This document shows, one piece after another, positions 333 through 27,977 of a DNA stretch of 33,182 nt. Source of the DNA: a virus. Every line of letters begins with the position of its first letter. Positions within the stretch are counted from its first letter, which is position 1. The DNA lies in IMG/VR virus record IMGVR_UViG_3300043786_000936, positions 1 to 33,182 of that record; one strand, 5' to 3'. Below the pieces are notes generated by a model, which was not told the DNA's origin, did not search any database, and was given only the letters and a program-made list of their open reading frames with translations. The position numbers were made by a program, and so were the translations under genes.

Positions 333-854
333 ATGGAAGAAATAGAAACGCTATCTTTGGTATCAGAAACAAATCCAATACTTCGTATGAACACAGAAGT
401 GTTTGATTTTAAGAATCCTCCAACAAATCCTGTTATTTTGTATAGACAGATGGCAAATACAATGCTAAAGAATAATGGTATTGGATTGGCGGCACCACAA
501 GTAGGTCTTCCATATAGAATGTTTGTGATGAGAACTCATCCAGACGTTATTGGAGTATTCAATCCACTTTTGCTTGACACTTCCGAAGAAACCATTATAC
601 TAGAAGAAGGTTGTCTGAGTTTTGATATGCTTTTTATTAAAGTAAAAAGACCGAAACGTATTCGGGTTCGTTTTACAAATCCCGACGGGCAAACTGAAAC
701 TAGGGTGTTTGATGGTATGACGGCTCGTTGTTTTCTTCACGAGTTGGACCATCTTAATGGAATTACCTATCTGCAAAAAGCAAATAAATTTCATATTGAG
801 ACCGCCAAGAAAAGACGCAAACAAATTAAAGAAGAGAACCAAAGGATTGCATAA
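333..854 (+). CDS. def: peptide deformylase
   Basis: Predicted metal-dependent peptide deformylase of 173 aa, which removes the formyl group from the initiator methionine of new proteins. All three family motifs are intact: GIGLAAPQVG (residues 49-58), EGCLS with the metal-binding Cys94, and HELDH with His136, Glu137 and His140. I place the start at ATG 333, because the GGAGG at 322-326 lies 6 bases upstream of it. The in-frame ATG at 321 would place this Shine-Dalgarno inside the coding region. The stop overlaps the next ATG by one base, which suggests coupled translation. Phage-encoded deformylases are known in marine myoviruses. The enzyme probably supports high-rate phage translation; that role is inferred. 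Confidence 0.93.
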   Translation: MEEIETLSLVSETNPILRMNTEVFDFKNPPTNPVILYRQMANTMLKNNGIGLAAPQVGLPYRMFVMRTHPDVIGVFNPLLLDTSEETIILEEGCLSFDMLFIKVKRPKRIRVRFTNPDGQTETRVFDGMTARCFLHELDHLNGITYLQKANKFHIETAKKRRKQIKEENQRIA

Positions 855-2224
855 TGGTTAAGGTGATTGTTGCAAAAGAGAAACATGACTGTGAACATTT
901 GCTGGGGCAATATTTAGATGAGAGCCACTATGATATACTTGTACAAGAAGATACTGATTGCTTCATGCCTCCTGATTGTGACCTTGCTACTCAAATGCAA
1001 TGTGATAAAAATTGCTCAGACTGCCCCACAGGAAAGTCAGAAGCCAGAGTAGCATTTAAATTCCGCAAGAATTATTTCAATAAGAAAATGCAAAGAGACG
1101 CATACGAGGGTCTGCGCGAAGCTGCAACTGAATCACAGAATCGTGGTCTAGCTGCTGGCCCAAGAGGTCCGACTCTCAGTGTCGATGGTCGAGGCGGAAG
1201 AGATTGGGTCACTGATTATGAGCTTGAGATTCTAGACTTCTTTATGAATGAGCGCAGTTCTTTGTTTGACAAAGAAGATATTTCTTCAATCAAACAAAAA
1301 TATGCAAAAAACAAAAGCAAATCTGATGAGACACGCGGAACTGTTTGGCTGAGATCTCAGGTCACAAAACGATATCCTGAGTATCATGGCTGGTTTGATG
1401 TTTGGGTTGATGAGGTCCAAAAACTCCCCAGACAAAAACAAATTGCTGAAGCTACTGAGATTGCTACCAAATGGATATCTTTCACAAATTATGCAAAATC
1501 AGTATACTCTGGCGTTGCTGGCTGGTACGATAGATATCCTAGAATTCCTTTCGGAAGAGCGACATCATACACTCGTGATAATCCGGAAAAATTTGCCAAA
1601 GCTTTTCCGTTCCTACAAAAACTCAATCAGGGTTATAAAGATTTGATGCCTTGGCGCTGGGGCAATCAAAAGGCTGCCTGTGATAAAATTGATAGCAGGT
1701 TTCTTGTACCAGAAACAGTATTCACAACAATCACTGTGAACAAAAGCTTTAGGACTGCCGCGCATCGTGACGCTGGAGATTTTCAAGACGGTCTTTCAAA
1801 TCTTCTTACTCTCGGAGACGGAGAATACACAGGCGGATATCTGATTTTCCCTGAATATCGAATCGCTGTTGATGTTCGCCCAGGAGATCTTCTTCTGGTA
1901 AACAATCATGAAATTATTCATGGTAATACTGAGATCAAACTTAATTTCCCAGAAGCAGAAAGAGTTTCTATTGTTTGTTATTTCCGAGAAAAGATGTTGG
2001 AGCTTGGATCTTGGGAATATGAGAGGACAAGAGAACAATATGTAGAGGATCGAAGAAAAAATAAAGATCATCCTCTGCAAAGACCATTGTGGAATGGAAT
2101 CTCGCCTTCGATGTGGGATGAAAAAGAATGGTATGATTATTTGACTGACAAACTGGGCAAAAAAACGTTAGAGAAATATCACCCAGAAGCCTTTGTTTCT
2201 TCTCTTGATAGTTTCTTCAACTAG
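854..2224 (+). CDS. TET/JBP-like 2-oxoglutarate/Fe(II) DNA base dioxygenase
   Basis: A 456-aa protein. Its C-terminal half carries the double-stranded beta-helix signature of the TET/JBP family. The HxD pair is His304-Arg-Asp306 in TAAHRDAGDF, followed by GGYLIFPEYRIAVDVRPGD and then HEIIHGN with the distal His356. Arg370 is a candidate 2-oxoglutarate ligand. The His304 to His356 spacing is close to that in trypanosome JBP. Family members hydroxylate thymine (JBP) or 5-methylcytosine (TET, including phage TETs) in DNA. The N-terminus has a Cys cluster (residues 36, 42, 50, 54, 57) that may bind zinc. ATG 854 overlaps the deformylase stop. The substrate base is not known; no cytosine-5 methyltransferase is visible in the window. 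An alternative would be a protein-modifying oxygenase, but the GGYLxxPxY and HGN pattern favours TET/JBP. Confidence 0.8.
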   Translation: MVKVIVAKEKHDCEHLLGQYLDESHYDILVQEDTDCFMPPDCDLATQMQCDKNCSDCPTGKSEARVAFKFRKNYFNKKMQRDAYEGLREAATESQNRGLAAGPRGPTLSVDGRGGRDWVTDYELEILDFFMNERSSLFDKEDISSIKQKYAKNKSKSDETRGTVWLRSQVTKRYPEYHGWFDVWVDEVQKLPRQKQIAEATEIATKWISFTNYAKSVYSGVAGWYDRYPRIPFGRATSYTRDNPEKFAKAFPFLQKLNQGYKDLMPWRWGNQKAACDKIDSRFLVPETVFTTITVNKSFRTAAHRDAGDFQDGLSNLLTLGDGEYTGGYLIFPEYRIAVDVRPGDLLLVNNHEIIHGNTEIKLNFPEAERVSIVCYFREKMLELGSWEYERTREQYVEDRRKNKDHPLQRPLWNGISPSMWDEKEWYDYLTDKLGKKTLEKYHPEAFVSSLDSFFN

Positions 2225-2637: not shown

Positions 2638-3345
2638 ATGTGTTCTGTTATTGGGGCGTTTTTTGATCACCCATCAAAAAAACAATTGACTCTTCTGAAA
2701 AACGTTTTCATCGAATCTAAAATAAGAGGAATGCACGCAACAGGCATTTCTTATATTCAAAACAACGAAATTATAACAATAAAAAAACCAATTCCGTCTG
2801 ACGAGTTCTTCAAAGATGTCGATTTTGAAGACCATTTTATCAATGAAGACGGCAATCTATACATGATTGGGCATTGTCGATATTCTACCTCAGACCTAGA
2901 ATATAATCAGCCAATCTATAATGATGACATTTCTATTGTTCACAATGGTGTGATCACACAGGAACTTCCAGAAAACTGGAAGTCCATTTACGACATTGTG
3001 TGTCAAACTAAAAACGATTCAGAATTTATTCTAAAGACTCTTGAGCAGAAAAAAGAACCTCTTTCTGCTTGGCCTGATACGTCTATGGCGGTTTGTGAAT
3101 TATATTCTGACAAAAAGATTCGTTTTTATAGAAACGCTAAAAGACCGTTAACAATGGCTGTGTTTAATAATGGTGTTATTGTTTCTTCTACAAAAGATAT
3201 TTTAAAAAGAGCGAATACAGTTGAAGAAGATTTTATAACGCTTGATTGTGACATGAATGTCATATATACTATAGATAGTCAAAGATTCCAAATTTCTAAT
3301 GAGTTGATTTCTACGAACAGGAAAGATTTACAGTATGAATTATGA
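2638..3345 (+). CDS. class II glutamine amidotransferase domain protein
   Basis: A 235-aa N-terminal-nucleophile (Ntn) glutaminase. Cys2, exposed once the initiator Met is removed (MCSVIGAFF), is the expected catalytic nucleophile. Family landmarks follow in order: RGMHATGISY, GHCRYST (compare GHTRYAT), VHNGVITQ and KNDSEFIL. Such domains release ammonia from glutamine for a partner synthase. No synthase domain is attached; the protein ends at the glutaminase fold, so the partner is probably the amidoligase encoded next, whose start overlaps this gene by 11 bases. Paired class II glutaminase and amidoligase genes are a reported phage and bacterial arrangement. The product is unknown; transfer of an amino group to a modified base or to a peptide or wall component are the main options. 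Confidence 0.85.
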   Translation: MCSVIGAFFDHPSKKQLTLLKNVFIESKIRGMHATGISYIQNNEIITIKKPIPSDEFFKDVDFEDHFINEDGNLYMIGHCRYSTSDLEYNQPIYNDDISIVHNGVITQELPENWKSIYDIVCQTKNDSEFILKTLEQKKEPLSAWPDTSMAVCELYSDKKIRFYRNAKRPLTMAVFNNGVIVSSTKDILKRANTVEEDFITLDCDMNVIYTIDSQRFQISNELISTNRKDLQYEL

Positions 3346-4210
3346 TCCTAAGAGTTTTACTTGGGGGTATGAAATAGAGTGGGGTGATATTGATCGTAGG
3401 CTGAATATTCCGGAACATCTCGGAAAATGGGAATATGCCGAAACAGATATTGTCAATATCAGAGAGCCATACAAATATATTGCTTGTGATCCATTGGGCC
3501 TTGATCCTCCTTTTGGTGGAGAAATCAACACAAAGCCCACTAAAACCTGGCAAGAGCAGGTTGATCGCATTATGGAAATTTATGAGCTCTTTGTTAAAAA
3601 CGGCAACCAACCATCAGCATCATGCGTCAACCACGGTCATCTTCACGTTTTTGTTCCTGGGCTGAAAAATGATATCGAAGGTCTAAAAAATCTAACCAAA
3701 TATATTCGTCGAAATCAAAAAGAGACTATAGCTGCTTGTTATAGATTCTATGACGGATATAATATGAAAAAACTCAAAAACGCCACAACATATCTAAAGT
3801 TTGACGGTGGCCGAGAAATGCCAGATTATATGTGTAGCAACATTATAAATTTGGCGAAAGACTTCGACACTTTTATCAAATTGCAATGCGCAGGTAAAGA
3901 TGGTATATCTATGGGTCGCCCACTTAGATACGCTATCAATACGTATTGTATGAAACATACAGGTACTATTGAGTTTAGATGTTTTCGTTCTACAACTAAT
4001 AGATTGGAAATTGAATCTCAGTTTAAATTTGTAGAAAGATTTATTGACGCTGCTTTGAATAACGGACCAGATGTTTGGGAAATTTTAGCAGATGTTAGTT
4101 TAAAGTTCCCAGAATTCAACTGGGATGATCTGGAATATGAAGGTTGGATTAAGACAAAATATGACAAATCACGCGGAGAGAAAAAACGCGAATTCCATGA
4201 AGTTGCGTAA
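3335..4210 (+). CDS. amidoligase (COOH-NH2 ligase) family protein
   Basis: A 291-aa protein with the glutamine-synthetase-like amidoligase pattern. It has GYEIEW at residues 11-16 (the acidic metal-binding strand), GGEINTKP at 61-68, HGHLHV at 100-105 and an Arg-containing EFRCFRS strand near the C-terminus. The family uses ATP to join a carboxyl group to an amine. Overlap with the glutaminase gene suggests the two act together, with glutamine-derived ammonia or an amine as acceptor. In this neighbourhood (dioxygenase, acetyltransferase, base kinase-like and transferase-like genes) a role in building a DNA-base side chain is attractive. Peptidoglycan or protein modification cannot be excluded. 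Confidence 0.85.
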   Translation: MNYDPKSFTWGYEIEWGDIDRRLNIPEHLGKWEYAETDIVNIREPYKYIACDPLGLDPPFGGEINTKPTKTWQEQVDRIMEIYELFVKNGNQPSASCVNHGHLHVFVPGLKNDIEGLKNLTKYIRRNQKETIAACYRFYDGYNMKKLKNATTYLKFDGGREMPDYMCSNIINLAKDFDTFIKLQCAGKDGISMGRPLRYAINTYCMKHTGTIEFRCFRSTTNRLEIESQFKFVERFIDAALNNGPDVWEILADVSLKFPEFNWDDLEYEGWIKTKYDKSRGEKKREFHEVA

Positions 4211-4742
4211 GACTTCCAAAGAAGAATTCGTTCGCCATATTACCGACAAAAAAGAAGATAGATTCGCCAAGACTTTTGTGGCAAAGGCTAATATGCAGGA
4301 TATCTGGGACAACTGTTATGGGTTGTGGCTAGAAGAAGATCTTTGTGGTGCTATAATCACAACAGTGTCCAAGAATTACCCCAAGATAATGAATCTTCAA
4401 TTGCTGCACACATTTCATAAACACAGAGGCTCAGGTGTTGGAAAGAAACTCTGTCAGTGGGCTTTGCAAAAAGCTGTTGATGATGGGGTGAATTACTTCA
4501 GAGTTTCAGCTGAGCCAGATGCTGTTTTGTTTTATGAGAAATGTGGATTTGTATTTCAGGGTAGACAAAAATCAAATAGCCAACTTTCTATTTTTCGCAT
4601 AATAGATAATAATTTTTCAAACGGCGATTATTCTATCTCTGATCCTATCATAAACAAAGCAGTTTACAGAAAAGGCAAAGGTGGATGTGTAGAAGTGTTT
4701 GTTAAGTCTGAACAATCTGATTTGGAAAAATTCTATGGATAG
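4197..4742 (+). CDS. GNAT-family N-acetyltransferase
   Basis: A 181-aa GNAT protein. The acetyl-CoA loop (motif A) is HRGSGVGKKLC, preceded by the strand IMNLQLLHTF. Motif B is AVLFYEKCGFVFQG. The start is uncertain: ATG 4197 begins a natural GNAT N-terminus and overlaps the amidoligase gene by only 14 bases, whereas ATG 4161 or 4125 would force long overlaps. A tail of about 60 residues after the GNAT core is unassigned. GNAT enzymes acylate amines. Set between an amidoligase and a transferase-like gene, this one may cap an amine on the modified base. That substrate is inferred. Confidence 0.8.
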   Translation: MKLRKTSKEEFVRHITDKKEDRFAKTFVAKANMQDIWDNCYGLWLEEDLCGAIITTVSKNYPKIMNLQLLHTFHKHRGSGVGKKLCQWALQKAVDDGVNYFRVSAEPDAVLFYEKCGFVFQGRQKSNSQLSIFRIIDNNFSNGDYSISDPIINKAVYRKGKGGCVEVFVKSEQSDLEKFYG

Positions 4743-5739
4743 CAGAGAGCTCTTTATTCGATGGTATGCATGGTCTCTGGAATATAAAGATTGTGATCCT
4801 TCTGTTTGGATGACAAATTATCTTAATAAAAGATATCAGCATAATGACGAGGAAAGAATATGGCTTTGCTGGCTTTATGGTAACACATATTATCTTCCGA
4901 CATCATGGGTGTTAAAGAATGAGTTTCCCGATTATGAGTTGGCTACTGTAGATAGAATAACAAAATGGAACAACACCAACTATAAAAGACTTAGATATCA
5001 AACAGACACAAAATACAATAAAGGCCATTTGCCTTCTATGTTTGAGTCTTACCAAAAATATTTTGGAAACAAATTGCAAAGAGATGTATTAGAATCATTA
5101 TACTCTGACAATGAAAAACAAAATTTCGATAATATATGGAATTCTGTAAATAAAAACTTCTATAAGTTTGGGAGATATACAACATGGTTTTATCTTCAAC
5201 ATCTTAAACATACCGCAGGAATAAAAATAGAACCAACATCACTAATGCTGTCAGATTATTCTGGGAGTAAATCACACAGAAATGGTTTGTGTTATGCTCT
5301 AAGCAAACAAGATTGGATAAATAATAAACTTACTGAGAAAGAATATCAGTGGCTGCAAGCAAAGAGCGACGATATTCTAATTGAAATGAGACAAAGATTT
5401 CCTCAGTTGTCCTCACAATTAGATTATTTTACTATGGAAACATGTCTCTGTAGTTTTAAGAAAATATTCAGAGAGAATTCTTCTAGATATTTGGGATATT
5501 ATCTCGATAGACAAGCTGAAGAGATATCTACTGTTTCTTCTGATAGTTGGAACGGGATAGACTGGGACGTTTTGTGGCAAGCTCGAAAAGAAACTATTGA
5601 TAAAAAGCTTGACAAACGCACAGGAATAGACAAGAATAGGTTTGGCGAATACCTGAAGACTGGTTCCATTGATAGAGTAGAGTGGATGTTTAAAGATTCC
5701 GTTAAAAAAGATATTGGATTGGAGATGTTTTTCGCATGA
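4735..5739 (+). CDS. helical protein resembling aGPT-PPlase / amino acid:DNA transferase
   Basis: A 334-aa all-helical-looking protein rich in Trp and Tyr. The central block FYKFGRYTTWFYLQHL, followed by SDYSGSKSHRNGLC, resembles the alpha-glutamyl/putrescinyl thymine pyrophosphorylase group (amino acid:DNA transferases). These displace the activating group from a phosphorylated 5-hydroxymethyl pyrimidine in DNA and attach an amine. The assignment is from memory of the family pattern and is moderate. The context supports it: the next gene, overlapping by ATGA, is a P-loop kinase of the kind that supplies the activated base. Start 4735 was chosen over 4699 because GGAAA lies about 8 bases upstream and the overlap with the acetyltransferase gene is then only 8 bases. 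Confidence 0.6.
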   Translation: MDSRELFIRWYAWSLEYKDCDPSVWMTNYLNKRYQHNDEERIWLCWLYGNTYYLPTSWVLKNEFPDYELATVDRITKWNNTNYKRLRYQTDTKYNKGHLPSMFESYQKYFGNKLQRDVLESLYSDNEKQNFDNIWNSVNKNFYKFGRYTTWFYLQHLKHTAGIKIEPTSLMLSDYSGSKSHRNGLCYALSKQDWINNKLTEKEYQWLQAKSDDILIEMRQRFPQLSSQLDYFTMETCLCSFKKIFRENSSRYLGYYLDRQAEEISTVSSDSWNGIDWDVLWQARKETIDKKLDKRTGIDKNRFGEYLKTGSIDRVEWMFKDSVKKDIGLEMFFA

Positions 5740-6272
5740 AAGTTATTGCTATATTTGGAGAGCCAGGCAGCGGTAAATCCACCCTGATGAATGAATTGAT
5801 GGCGCGTATTGGGATCTCAAGAGAAGTCAAAACTGATTTCAAACTTGTGCCATATCATCAAAAAGAAAATATCTATATTCTCGGTAAATATGAAGTCGGA
5901 GAAGTTTTTGGTGGGACTGATAAAATGTCTATGGCTGTTCAGCCAGAAGCCATAAAATTTCTTGCTAGTTTAGATGATAATTCAGTTGTTCTTTTCGAAG
6001 GCGATAGGCTATGCACTTCGTCTTTTCTTGATCACTGCAACGATAAATATAATCTGACGATGGTATATCTCTCCACGTCAAAATCAATCCGTACAGAAAG
6101 ATTTAAAGAACGAAACAGCAATCAAGATGAAACTTGGTTGAAAGGTCGTGAAAGCAAAATCAATAATATACTTTCTAATCTTAATCTTAAATTCATTACT
6201 GAAATCTTTGAGAACAATAAAAGAGAGGATTCAGAAAAAATTATAAACTTTATCATGGAAAAAATTAAATGA
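5736..6272 (+). CDS. P-loop kinase, possible 5-hydroxymethylpyrimidine DNA base kinase
   Basis: A 178-aa P-loop kinase. Walker A is GEPGSGKST (residues 8-16, Lys14). VVLFEGDRL (residues 84-92) is the Walker B region, and a lid-like RTERFKERN lies further on. A conserved-looking VFGGTDKMSMAVQPEA segment (58-72) may form the substrate site. Small kinases of this type sit beside aGPT-PPlase genes in phages with hypermodified thymine and phosphorylate 5-hydroxymethyluracil in DNA. The gene overlaps the transferase-like gene by ATGA and the next gene by ATGA, so the three are translationally linked. A deoxynucleoside monophosphate or polynucleotide kinase is the alternative. The kinase fold is certain; the base-kinase role is inferred from context. 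Confidence 0.75.
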   Translation: MKVIAIFGEPGSGKSTLMNELMARIGISREVKTDFKLVPYHQKENIYILGKYEVGEVFGGTDKMSMAVQPEAIKFLASLDDNSVVLFEGDRLCTSSFLDHCNDKYNLTMVYLSTSKSIRTERFKERNSNQDETWLKGRESKINNILSNLNLKFITEIFENNKREDSEKIINFIMEKIK

Positions 6273-6655
6273 CACCAGTTGAGAAATGGTACTTGAGAAA
6301 AAATTCTGACATAGAGAATGGCGGCGTCAAATACGATAAAGATAAGCCGCCGATGGATCTTATACCCACAGAAGCTTTGTTTGAAGTCGCTGAAATATTA
6401 AAATTCGGGGCTGAAAAATATGAGCCATACAATTGGGCCAAAGGTATGGCGTATTCGAGACTCACTGCGGCGGCACTGAGACATATCTTCAAATTCAATT
6501 CTGGAGAGGATAATGATCCTGAAACTGGGAAATCTCACATTTCCCATGCCATTTGTTGTCTTCTCTTCTTAGCAGAATACGAAAAACGGAAAGAACATTA
6601 TGAGTCTTTTGACGATAGATTTGATTGGAATACAAAAAAGACTAAAAACGCTTGA
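6269..6655 (+). CDS. dATP/dGTP diphosphohydrolase-like protein (MazG-type all-alpha fold)
   Basis: A 128-aa protein matching the phage dATP/dGTP diphosphohydrolase N-terminal family (formerly DUF5664, related to MazZ). The pattern VKYDKDKPPMDLIP, then ILKFGAEKYEPYNWAKGM, RLTAAALRH, GEDNDPETGKSH and HAICCLLFLAEYE is typical. Acidic residues on the helices would hold Mg2+. The reaction is dNTP to dNMP plus pyrophosphate. In some phages the enzyme feeds synthesis of 2-aminoadenine DNA, but the rest of that pathway is not seen here, so general dNTP pool control or removal of host nucleotides is as likely. It overlaps the kinase gene by four bases and ends the operon. Confidence 0.8.
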   Translation: MTPVEKWYLRKNSDIENGGVKYDKDKPPMDLIPTEALFEVAEILKFGAEKYEPYNWAKGMAYSRLTAAALRHIFKFNSGEDNDPETGKSHISHAICCLLFLAEYEKRKEHYESFDDRFDWNTKKTKNA

Positions 6656-6702: not shown

Positions 6703-7593
6703 ATGGAATCCCAAACAAAAATGAACCTAGAGGACGGATCTCTCAAGATCGAAGTCCCAACAGAAGTATTGAAAAATAGAAAACTATTTGTTGCCACTCC
6801 AATGTATGGCGGACAATGCGCGGGAATGTTTGCTCGATCGATCGCAGACCTTTCCGCTCTTTGTCAGAAATACGGAATTCAGCTGAGACTTTATTTCCTA
6901 TTCAACGAGTCTCTGATTACTCGAGGTAGGAACTACTGTGCTGACGAATTCATGAGGTCTGGTGACACCCACCTAATGTTCATCGACTCGGATATCGGCT
7001 TCAATGCCAACGATGTTATCGCTCTTCTTGCTCTGCAATCAGAGAATCCAGAGGAAGATGAATATGATATTCTCTGCGGCCCATATCCTAAGAAGTGTAT
7101 CTCTTGGGAGAAAATTAAACAAGCTGTTGATAAAGGATTCGCGGATCAAGATCCTAGCGTCCTAGATCGATTTGTTGGCGATTATGTCTTCAATCCTGCT
7201 AACGGTAAGACTGAAATTTCTCTTACCAAACCAGCGGAAATTCTTGAGGCTGGTACAGGCTTCATGATGATTCGACGCAATACTTTTGAGAAGTTTGCTG
7301 AGGCTTACCCACAGCAATCTTATAAACCAGATCACGTAAGAACTGAACACTTTGACGGTTCTCGTGAGATCATGGCGTTCTTCGACACGCCAATTGATCC
7401 TGAATCCAAACGCTATCTGTCAGAAGATTATATGTTCTGTCAGTGGTCTAGGAAAATTGGACTGAAGGTTTGGCTGTGCCCATGGATGCAGCTGAAGCAT
7501 GTTGGTTCATATATATTTGGCGGTTCTCTTGTTGATCTTGCCCAAATCGGTGCTGCCGCAACGGCAGACGTAAGCAAACTAAAGAAAAAATAG
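6703..7593 (+). CDS. GT-A (family 2-like) glycosyltransferase
   Basis: A 296-aa glycosyltransferase with the phage GT-A pattern. It has KLFVATPMYGG near the N-terminus, SLITRGRNYCADEF, then THLMFIDSDIGF with the DxD metal and nucleotide-sugar motif, CGPYPKK and AGTGFMMIRR further on, and a late SEDYMFCQWSRKIG segment with an acidic catalytic candidate. Its own early promoter and position after the base-modification block suggest DNA as the substrate. Proteins of the GT-A class transfer glucose to hydroxymethyluracil in base J synthesis, so pairing with the TET/JBP-like enzyme is suggestive. Host surface or virion glycosylation remains possible. The start has a plausible Shine-Dalgarno (GAAGGA) about 9 bases upstream. 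Confidence 0.82.
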   Translation: MESQTKMNLEDGSLKIEVPTEVLKNRKLFVATPMYGGQCAGMFARSIADLSALCQKYGIQLRLYFLFNESLITRGRNYCADEFMRSGDTHLMFIDSDIGFNANDVIALLALQSENPEEDEYDILCGPYPKKCISWEKIKQAVDKGFADQDPSVLDRFVGDYVFNPANGKTEISLTKPAEILEAGTGFMMIRRNTFEKFAEAYPQQSYKPDHVRTEHFDGSREIMAFFDTPIDPESKRYLSEDYMFCQWSRKIGLKVWLCPWMQLKHVGSYIFGGSLVDLAQIGAAATADVSKLKKK

Positions 7594-14797: not shown

Positions 14798-15880
14798 ATG
14801 TCTCTGATGGAAGCTATAATTGACGTTCTCAACGCAAAAACTCCCCCATCGGCGGAGCAAAAAGCCAAACTTGATGAAAACGAAAGTCCGTTTGGTCCCT
14901 CCAAGCTTGCGATTAAATCTATTATAGATAATATACCAAAAGTTTCAAGATATACTGATGAAATAGAAAAAACATTTCAAGAAGAAATATCGAAAAAAGA
15001 TAAAATTCCTTCAAAACTGATAACTGTTTCTAATGGATCTGATCCATTATTAAGAGTTTTTGGACAGATGATCGCCAAAGACGGGCAAGGACAGCTTATT
15101 GTTCCAAATACTACCTACGAATCAGTAGTCACAGAATCTAAAAAATATGGAGCTTTGATAACTGGCGTTGATATGAACAAAGATTTGTCTATAAATTTAA
15201 CAGCCATAGAAAACAAAATAAATAAACAAACCACTGGAATATATATTTGTAATCCCAACAACCCAACAGGTAATAAAGTTAACATAGCACAATTGAGAGA
15301 TTTTATAGCACGAGTATCAAAATATACTCCATGTTTAATCGACGAAGCCTATATACATATGGTAGATAACTGGGAGAAAAACACCGTAATAGATATGGTC
15401 GAGAAATTCGATAATGTTATGGTAACTCGAACGTTTTCCAAAATTTATGGACTGGCTGGACAAAGAATTGGTTATGCTGCAGCTAGTCCCAATTTAATGT
15501 ATAAATTGAATAAAATTCTTCCCGGACCAGGTTTTACCAACTCTTTGGGGTTGTATGCGGCTTTAGCGAGCATGGAAGATCAGAAATTTTTACCTGACGC
15601 AAAGAACAAATTTAAAAAAGCCAGAAATTCAATTTATGATATAGTTAAAAATTTGGGTTTAGAAATGGCGGCTGATCCCCAGGCATGTTTTGTTTATTTC
15701 AATACCAAAATGAATGCAGAAAATTTTCAAAAACAAATGGCTAAATTCGGCGTTCTTGTTGTTGGAAGAGTTTGGGCTAAATATCCAACTTGGTCTCGCG
15801 TGTCAGTGGGATTAGACTGGGAGATAGACAAATTTAAAAACTCTATCGAGAAAGTAATTAAAGCGGAGAAACAAAAATAA
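14798..15880 (+). CDS. PLP-dependent aminotransferase, histidinol-phosphate aminotransferase-like
   Basis: A 360-aa fold-type I aminotransferase of the HisC-like class. It has LDENESPFGPS at the start, NPNNPTGN (152-159), DEAYIHMVD with Asp182 and Tyr185, and RTFSKIYGLAGQRIGY with Lys215 as the PLP Schiff-base lysine and Arg223. All core residues are present, so it is probably active on an amino-alcohol or amino-acid phosphate. A late promoter lies directly upstream, and the stop overlaps the start of a probable virion protein by one base. A late-expressed aminotransferase coupled to a structural gene is unusual. Options are sugar or side-chain synthesis for virion decoration, or a metabolic role late in infection. 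Confidence 0.88.
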   Translation: MSLMEAIIDVLNAKTPPSAEQKAKLDENESPFGPSKLAIKSIIDNIPKVSRYTDEIEKTFQEEISKKDKIPSKLITVSNGSDPLLRVFGQMIAKDGQGQLIVPNTTYESVVTESKKYGALITGVDMNKDLSINLTAIENKINKQTTGIYICNPNNPTGNKVNIAQLRDFIARVSKYTPCLIDEAYIHMVDNWEKNTVIDMVEKFDNVMVTRTFSKIYGLAGQRIGYAAASPNLMYKLNKILPGPGFTNSLGLYAALASMEDQKFLPDAKNKFKKARNSIYDIVKNLGLEMAADPQACFVYFNTKMNAENFQKQMAKFGVLVVGRVWAKYPTWSRVSVGLDWEIDKFKNSIEKVIKAEKQK

Positions 15881-27473: not shown

Positions 27474-27977
27474 ATGTATACTGTTTATAAGATAACAAAT
27501 TTGGTCAACCAAAAATATTACATCGGCGTCCACAAAACAGATAACCCATATGATTCTTATATGGGGTCTGGATATGCAGTAAAATCCGCCATCAAAAAAC
27601 ACGGCAGAAAGAATTTTATAAAGGAAATTCTTTTTACCACAGTTGATAAAGAAGAAGCTTACGCTTTCGAGAAAAAATTAACTGAAGATTATATGACAAG
27701 AGATTCATATAATATGAAAATTGGTGGCGTTGGAGGGTTTTCTAGAGAGAACGCTTTAAAGGGGCATGCCGCTTCTCTAAAGAAATTAACAAAACAACAA
27801 CGTTCTGATAATGGAAAACTTGGTTACGCTGCAATGCTTCCCAAAATCAATCTAAATGAGATTGGCAGAAGGGGAGGTCAGGCTAACAGAGGCAAACCAA
27901 AATCCGAAGCGCATAAAGAAAAACTTCGGCAAGTTTGGAGAGACAAAAAAATAAGGGCGAGTCGCCAAGAGGTCTAA
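27474..27977 (+). CDS. GIY-YIG homing endonuclease (Seg-like)
   Basis: A 167-aa endonuclease. The GIY-YIG domain is at the N-terminus: VYKITNLVNQKYYIGVHKT (residues 3-21), then SAIKKHGRKNFIKEIL with a conserved catalytic Arg region, and a Glu in EKKLTEDYM. The C-terminal part carries NUMOD3-like DNA-binding repeats (GRRGGQANRGKPKSEAHKEK). It would cut a related phage tRNA locus to promote its own inheritance. GGAG is about 8 bases upstream. The last 8 codons run into the following tRNA gene. Confidence 0.92.
   Translation: MYTVYKITNLVNQKYYIGVHKTDNPYDSYMGSGYAVKSAIKKHGRKNFIKEILFTTVDKEEAYAFEKKLTEDYMTRDSYNMKIGGVGGFSRENALKGHAASLKKLTKQQRSDNGKLGYAAMLPKINLNEIGRRGGQANRGKPKSEAHKEKLRQVWRDKKIRASRQEV

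Follow-up and report, generated by a model that had tools for sequence, protein, structure and literature searches.

A TET/JBP-family dioxygenase at the head of a putative DNA hypermodification cassette in T4-like phages

We analyzed a 33 kb record, called the window here in its entirety, that is a fragment of a phage genome. Its genes run from the end of gp46 through a peptide deformylase, a TET/JBP-family dioxygenase (TET), a cassette of putative modification genes, a GT-A-fold glycosyltransferase, gp45, gp44, gp62 and RegA. DNA polymerase, a RecA/UvsX-like protein and a DnaB-like helicase come after RegA. The window is part of a T4-like phage genome. The original prediction pointed to the TET and to the nearby GT-A gene, but missed the amidotransferase, amidoligase-like, GNAT, amino acid:DNA transferase (ADDT) and kinase genes behind the TET. 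From position 2638 onward the genes overlap or nearly abut one another. The features relevant to this analysis are:

854-2224, + strand: TET/JBP-family Fe(II)/2OG dioxygenase (456 aa, ATG start; identified by PF12851, invariant residues and a structural model)
2638-3345, + strand: stand-alone class II glutamine amidotransferase with a Cys2 nucleophile (PF13522, E 3.8e-9)
3335-4210, + strand: amidoligase_2-like protein, a putative carboxylate-amine ligase resembling glutamine synthetase (weak PF12224 match, E 0.019; phrog_2443, E 5e-4)
4125-4742, + strand: GNAT acyltransferase (PF13673, E 1.2e-11)
4735-5739, + strand: ADDT, aGPT-PPlase2-like (PF18724, E 4.2e-19, 69.6 bits)
5736-6272, + strand: P-loop nucleotide kinase 3 (PF18751, E 3.9e-13)
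6269-6655, + strand: dATP/dGTP diphosphohydrolase N-terminal-like protein (PF18909, E 1e-34)
6703-7593, + strand: GT-A-fold glycosyltransferase (phrog_1574; model aligns with GT-A enzymes at Z about 16)

The amidotransferase motifs M1-C2, RGxHATG and HNG are invariant, and the amidoligase-like protein keeps the motifs ExE, GGEIN.KPT, HxH and TIEFR. The ADDT contains an invariant D-x-x-GS-x-SHRNGL motif, while the kinase combines the Walker A motif GEPGSGKST with conserved GTDxxSMAVQP and FEGDR segments. The true start of the GNAT gene is probably at 4197-4203. The longest ORF containing the ADDT opens at TTG 4699, and ATG 4735 is its likely start. Two further genes were observed elsewhere in the window. 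Positions 14798-15880 encode a HisC-like PLP aminotransferase (PF00155, E 7e-42) for which the collected neighbouring loci contain no homologue, and positions 27474-27977, adjoining a tRNA-Met gene, resemble a GIY-YIG homing endonuclease by eye.

The 854-2224 ORF matches the Tet_JBP profile PF12851 with an E-value of 3.6e-26 (91.8 bits; cut-off 34.9), and the protein also matches phrog_24024 over nearly its full length. The HxD...HGN core of DNA dioxygenases had been predicted for this protein, and it is found as H304-R305-D306 and H356-G357-N358. The Fe ligands H304, D306 and H356 and R370, the arginine that binds 2OG, do not vary among 133 clade sequences, and the stacking residue is Y376. 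An AlphaFold model built from 40 clade sequences (mean pLDDT 81) is structurally closest to TET2 (Z 19.8), NgTET1 (19.2), CcTet (18.2) and CMD1 (18.1). Alignments of TET enzymes to the model span Z scores of about 17.5-19.8, and the AlkB family comes next at about 14 (ALKBH3 14.1). The assignment as a TET/JBP-like enzyme thus holds, as does the predicted N-terminal Cys cluster, which we located at C13, C36 and C42-x7-C50-x3-C54-x2-C57. The cluster, perhaps a zinc knuckle, is an optional insert, because 37 of 80 scored homologues keep at least five of these Cys residues; the remaining homologues have one to three.

Public records label the family of the window TET 'SNF2 DNA repair protein', a name for which the protein sequence offers no support. 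TETs in phage records often carry this name or 'queuine tRNA-ribosyltransferase', which conceals the associated cassettes. Similarly, homologues of the PF18751-type kinase are often annotated as 'terminase small subunit' or 'adenylate kinase' in GenBank phage records. NCBIfam contains no match for the TET, amidoligase, ADDT or GT-A gene, and searching PDB sequences with profiles of the TET, GT-A, ADDT and kinase yielded nothing useful on function.

The association between the TET and the genes behind it is conserved. Among 86 TET loci, the amidotransferase is present in 47, the ADDT in 41 and the kinase in 33, and the ADDT is found at every kinase-bearing locus. A separate search starting from the ADDT identified both TET and amidotransferase in all 30 loci with at least 5.5 kb of upstream sequence. 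The amidoligase occurs in 19 and the GNAT in 14 of these 30 loci, and loci lacking the window-type GNAT have a different GNAT-like gene. The kinase is present in each of the 45 ADDT loci with enough downstream DNA. As an independent check, we found the TET in 14 of 15 ADDT records; the fifteenth contig stops where the TET would lie. Because of the uniform occurrence of the TET and amidotransferase (30/30) and the kinase (45/45) at ADDT loci, compared with the partial occurrence of the amidoligase and GNAT, the cassette core consists of the TET, amidotransferase, ADDT and kinase, and the other two genes are variable. At L039:7705-9054 and seven similar loci, the cassette contains an inserted gene with ParB-like motifs recognized by eye (Pfam gave nothing above cut-off), and an annotated ParB-like gene also opens actinophage TET cassettes.

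The missing METHYLTRANSFERASE was sought with the PF00145 profile for cytosine C5-methyltransferases (C5-MTs), which found no match in the 33 kb window, in agreement with the original prediction. The same profile found none in 30 clade records totalling 2.5 Mb. These include the complete phages DLP6, Cr30, C48C1 and S-CBWM1 as well as a cassette-bearing 170.8 kb contig, which is probably complete because its ends overlap by exactly 127 bp. PF00303, the thymidylate-synthase family that also includes the dUMP and dCMP hydroxymethylases and dCMP methylase, is absent from the window and from the 30 clade records with the exception of Cr30, whose gene is annotated as thymidylate synthase. The C5-MT search is able to succeed, since in a positive control it identified a C5-MT adjoining the TET in 66 of 71 Melnitz-type loci (Methylophilales phages), whereas the window clade gave none. 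Given that no C5-MT was found in the clade, thymine is left as the sole abundant 5-methylpyrimidine substrate, unless the host provides 5mC. At L092:3203-7283, Methylophilales phage Melnitz-3 carries a row of genes for a C5-MT, a TET, a 427-aa protein and a kinase related to that of the window. The C5-MT/TET pair recurs in many IMG/VR loci, and the row resembles a cytosine-directed form of the pathway proposed for the window.

At most TET loci without an ADDT, the gene behind the TET is of glycosyltransferase type and belongs to cluster c26, c41, c39 or c59. Cluster c26 is Glycos_transf_1, c41 matches TAGT (PF20691) above the cut-off, and c39 is TAGT-like below the cut-off. Cluster c59, at first counted as a glycosyltransferase, has no family match. 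Of 80 loci with either type, 48 have only the ADDT type, 29 only the glycosyltransferase type and three have both, a near-exclusion with a Fisher p of 9e-14, a value that ignores kinship among the loci. The anticorrelation holds when c59 is left out (p 1e-10). The maximum-likelihood TET tree requires no fewer than 11 changes of cassette type, or 10 without c59, and the exclusion is therefore not the product of a single ancient split. The PF18751 kinase is found in the large ADDT-type records (G012-G016) and is absent from the large glycosyltransferase-type records G001, G002, G006 and G007. The PF18909 diphosphohydrolase-like gene is present with both cassette types.

Several relatives of the window locus carry sugar-related genes close to the TET. 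Glycos_transf_1 lies directly behind the TET in L030 (a 197 kb IMG/VR record, G006), L009, L012, L029 and L067, and the large records of such siblings contain neither a C5-MT nor a hydroxymethylase. The DNA of these siblings is a candidate for 5hmU bearing a base J-like sugar, and such chemistry can reasonably be guessed for the sibling phages that have a glycosyltransferase instead of the ADDT cassette. More distant TETs, at L004:5207-7921 in Synechococcus phage S-CBWM1 and L003:12375-13385 in phage C48C1, lie beside sugar-nucleotide genes (TAGT-like and glucose-1-phosphate thymidylyltransferase; UDP-galactopyranose mutase), hinting at unusual sugars on the DNA of these phages.

Taken together with its neighbours, the window TET very probably carries out the first step of an ADDT/kinase pathway of pyrimidine hypermodification. 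We consider it probable, with less confidence, that the substrate is thymine and that the pathway proceeds in full, from oxidation to 5hmU to addition of an amino acid by the kinase and ADDT. Thymine hydroxylation is favoured because no C5-MT occurs in the 30 clade records. The content, order, conservation and exchange of the genes and the lack of a C5-MT in the clade records are observed, and from these we infer every chemical step of the following scheme. The TET would act after phage DNA replication and oxidise thymine at its methyl group, yielding 5-hydroxymethyluracil, and the P-loop kinase would phosphorylate the resulting hydroxyl. The ADDT, judging by its family, which is found in phages with 5hmdU-derived bases, would then allow the amino group of an amino acid to displace the phosphate. 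The least certain steps are the last ones, in which the amidotransferase and amidoligase may convert the carboxylate of the added amino acid to an amide and the GNAT may acylate this amino acid. The TET would in this way take the place of the route through dUMP hydroxymethylase that M6, ViI and phiW14 use.

The residues that would contact the base are relevant to the choice between thymine and cytosine. In published structures the N4 of 5mC is bonded by TET2 Asn1387, NgTET1 Asp234 and CMD1 Asp350, and its O2 is bonded by CcTet Arg393 (PMC11040006). D309 of the window TET aligns with the first three of these residues and R378 aligns with CcTet Arg393. D309 is also found in the C5-MT-linked Melnitz TETs, the actinophage TETs have Asn at this position, and D309 occurs in clades both with and without a C5-MT. 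The window TET pocket looks cytosine-type, or at least not thymine-specific, on alignment. An Asp at position 309 does not exclude thymine, however, because NgTET1 is reported to oxidise thymine too, more weakly; the pocket offers no proof of thymine either, and these residues do not decide between thymine and 5mC. R378/N358, as opposed to D/V, divides the C5-MT-unlinked from the C5-MT-linked TETs, although this split may reflect mere descent.

It is unlikely that the TET oxidises 5mC produced by the host or by an unseen phage C5-MT to 5hmC, which the kinase and ADDT would then tailor. The resemblance of the base-contacting residues to those of 5mC enzymes is consistent with such a pathway, and the occurrence of a C5-MT, a TET and a related kinase together in the Melnitz phages makes tailoring by a kinase compatible with cytosine. 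However, the clade records without a C5-MT include complete genomes, and Cr30 alone among them has a gene of the family that contains the dCMP hydroxymethylases and methylase. Methylation from the host would be sparse and host-dependent, and the ADDT family occurs in three phages with known 5hmdU-derived bases.

The original prediction also proposed a base J-like pathway, with thymine hydroxylation followed by glucosylation. The first part of this idea is supported by context, given that no C5-MT was found in the 30 clade records, whereas glucosylation in this phage is not, as the TET-adjacent cassette is of the ADDT/kinase type. The neighbouring gene does appear to encode a glycosyltransferase. 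Pfam and PDB sequence searches gave no match for the 6703-7593 protein, but its model (mean pLDDT only 70) has a GT-A fold and aligns with STIV A197 and with the LH3 glycosyltransferase domain at Z about 16. The gene lies on the same strand as the TET at a distance of 4.5 kb, and other glycosyltransferases are found directly behind the TET in sibling loci. However, the GT-A gene accompanies either cassette type equally often (17 and 13 loci, Fisher p 0.8), it is also present in Sinorhizobium phages for which the search returned no TET, and it is not specific to the TET cassette. In addition, glycosyltransferase-type siblings have a separate enzyme adjacent to the TET, and such a dedicated glycosyltransferase almost never shares a locus with the ADDT cassette. 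Since the GT-A enzyme is real but not tied to the TET, we rejected base J formation through it as the main reading, and glucosylation by this enzyme of 5hmU made by the TET is improbable. It is very improbable that the dioxygenase and cassette act on RNA or free nucleotides instead of phage DNA. Such action would fit the fold, which is shared with nucleic-acid oxygenases of the AlkB/FTO group that include RNA-acting members. The structure comparison, however, ranks TET/JBP enzymes far ahead of AlkB/FTO, the ADDT family is present in phages whose DNA is hypermodified, and the cassette is located among replication genes.

Returning to thymine as the substrate, we tentatively suggest, with some doubt, that a constant thymine-oxidising TET serves T4-like phages as the entry point to exchangeable cassettes, for either amino-acid transfer or glycosylation, that have replaced one another at least ten times at the same locus. 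The sugar-adding enzymes of the relatives suggest an exchangeable DNA-disguise kit. Iyer et al. reportedly predicted in 2013 that TET-made hydroxymethylpyrimidines are starting points for further modification in phages, and a 2025 study named such a gene set in an actinophage. New here are the longer cassette with an amidotransferase and amidoligase in T4-like phages and its repeated swapping with glycosyltransferase cassettes behind one TET. If a TET, not a dUMP hydroxymethylase, starts thymine hypermodification, this would constitute a second, post-replicative route to 5hmU-based DNA, one that could be site-selective and combinable with different add-ons. The repeated alternation between sugar and amino-acid cassettes has the appearance of rapid evolution in response to host restriction, and the exchanged cassettes are a natural set of new DNA-modifying enzymes. 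Isolated relatives exist, including Caulobacter phage Cr30 and Mycobacterium phage Prince. The published description of the clade member DLP6 includes an 18-enzyme restriction panel.

The proposed pathway shares features with several known systems. Like JBP1 and JBP2 of the kinetoplastids, which act in base J formation, the window enzyme belongs to the TET/JBP family and has thymine as its proposed substrate; unlike the kinetoplastid pathway, its cassette has no dedicated glucosyltransferase. Burke et al. are said to have described in 2021 phage TETs coupled to a C5-methyltransferase and to TET-associated glycosyltransferases. The window clade resembles these systems in the TET fold and in the TAGT genes (PF20691) behind the TET in sibling loci, but differs in having no C5-MT in the 30 records.

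Actinophage cassettes likewise group TET, ADDT and kinase genes. The TET, aGPT-PPlase2 and 5hmU kinase of Rhodococcus phage Tonitrus were proposed, without experiment, to hypermodify thymidine (PMC11955845). The complete genome of Mycobacterium phage Prince contains genes for a ParB-like protein, a 'thymidine hydroxylase', an ADDT and an 'adenylate kinase', and neither a C5-MT nor PF00303 was found in it. Microbacterium phage Cinna and Arthrobacter phage Ottawa have a TET and a PF18751 kinase, and both the C5-MT and PF00303 are absent from them. In contrast to the window, the cassettes of Tonitrus and Prince list no amidotransferase or amidoligase, and the Prince TET is only 19% identical to the window TET and has N in place of D309.

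The transferase itself connects the window to phages with characterized bases. The hypermodified thymidines of Salmonella phage ViI, Pseudomonas phage M6 and Delftia phage phiW14 are believed to arise from 5hmdU by the action of a 5hmdU DNA kinase and of a transferase for amino acids or alkylamines (PMC6449724). All three encode a PF18724 ADDT, and that of ViI matches the window ADDT with an E-value of 3e-26. Their kinases do not match PF18751, and therefore phosphorylation of a 5-hydroxymethyl base by the window kinase is only predicted. The window shares with these phages an ADDT-family transferase and would share a kinase-then-transfer route on a 5-hydroxymethyl pyrimidine. However, ViI, M6 and phiW14 have no TET and are believed to build 5hmdU into their DNA as it replicates, whereas in the window phage, which has no gene of the PF00303 dUMP hydroxymethylase family in the window, the TET would make 5hmU after replication.
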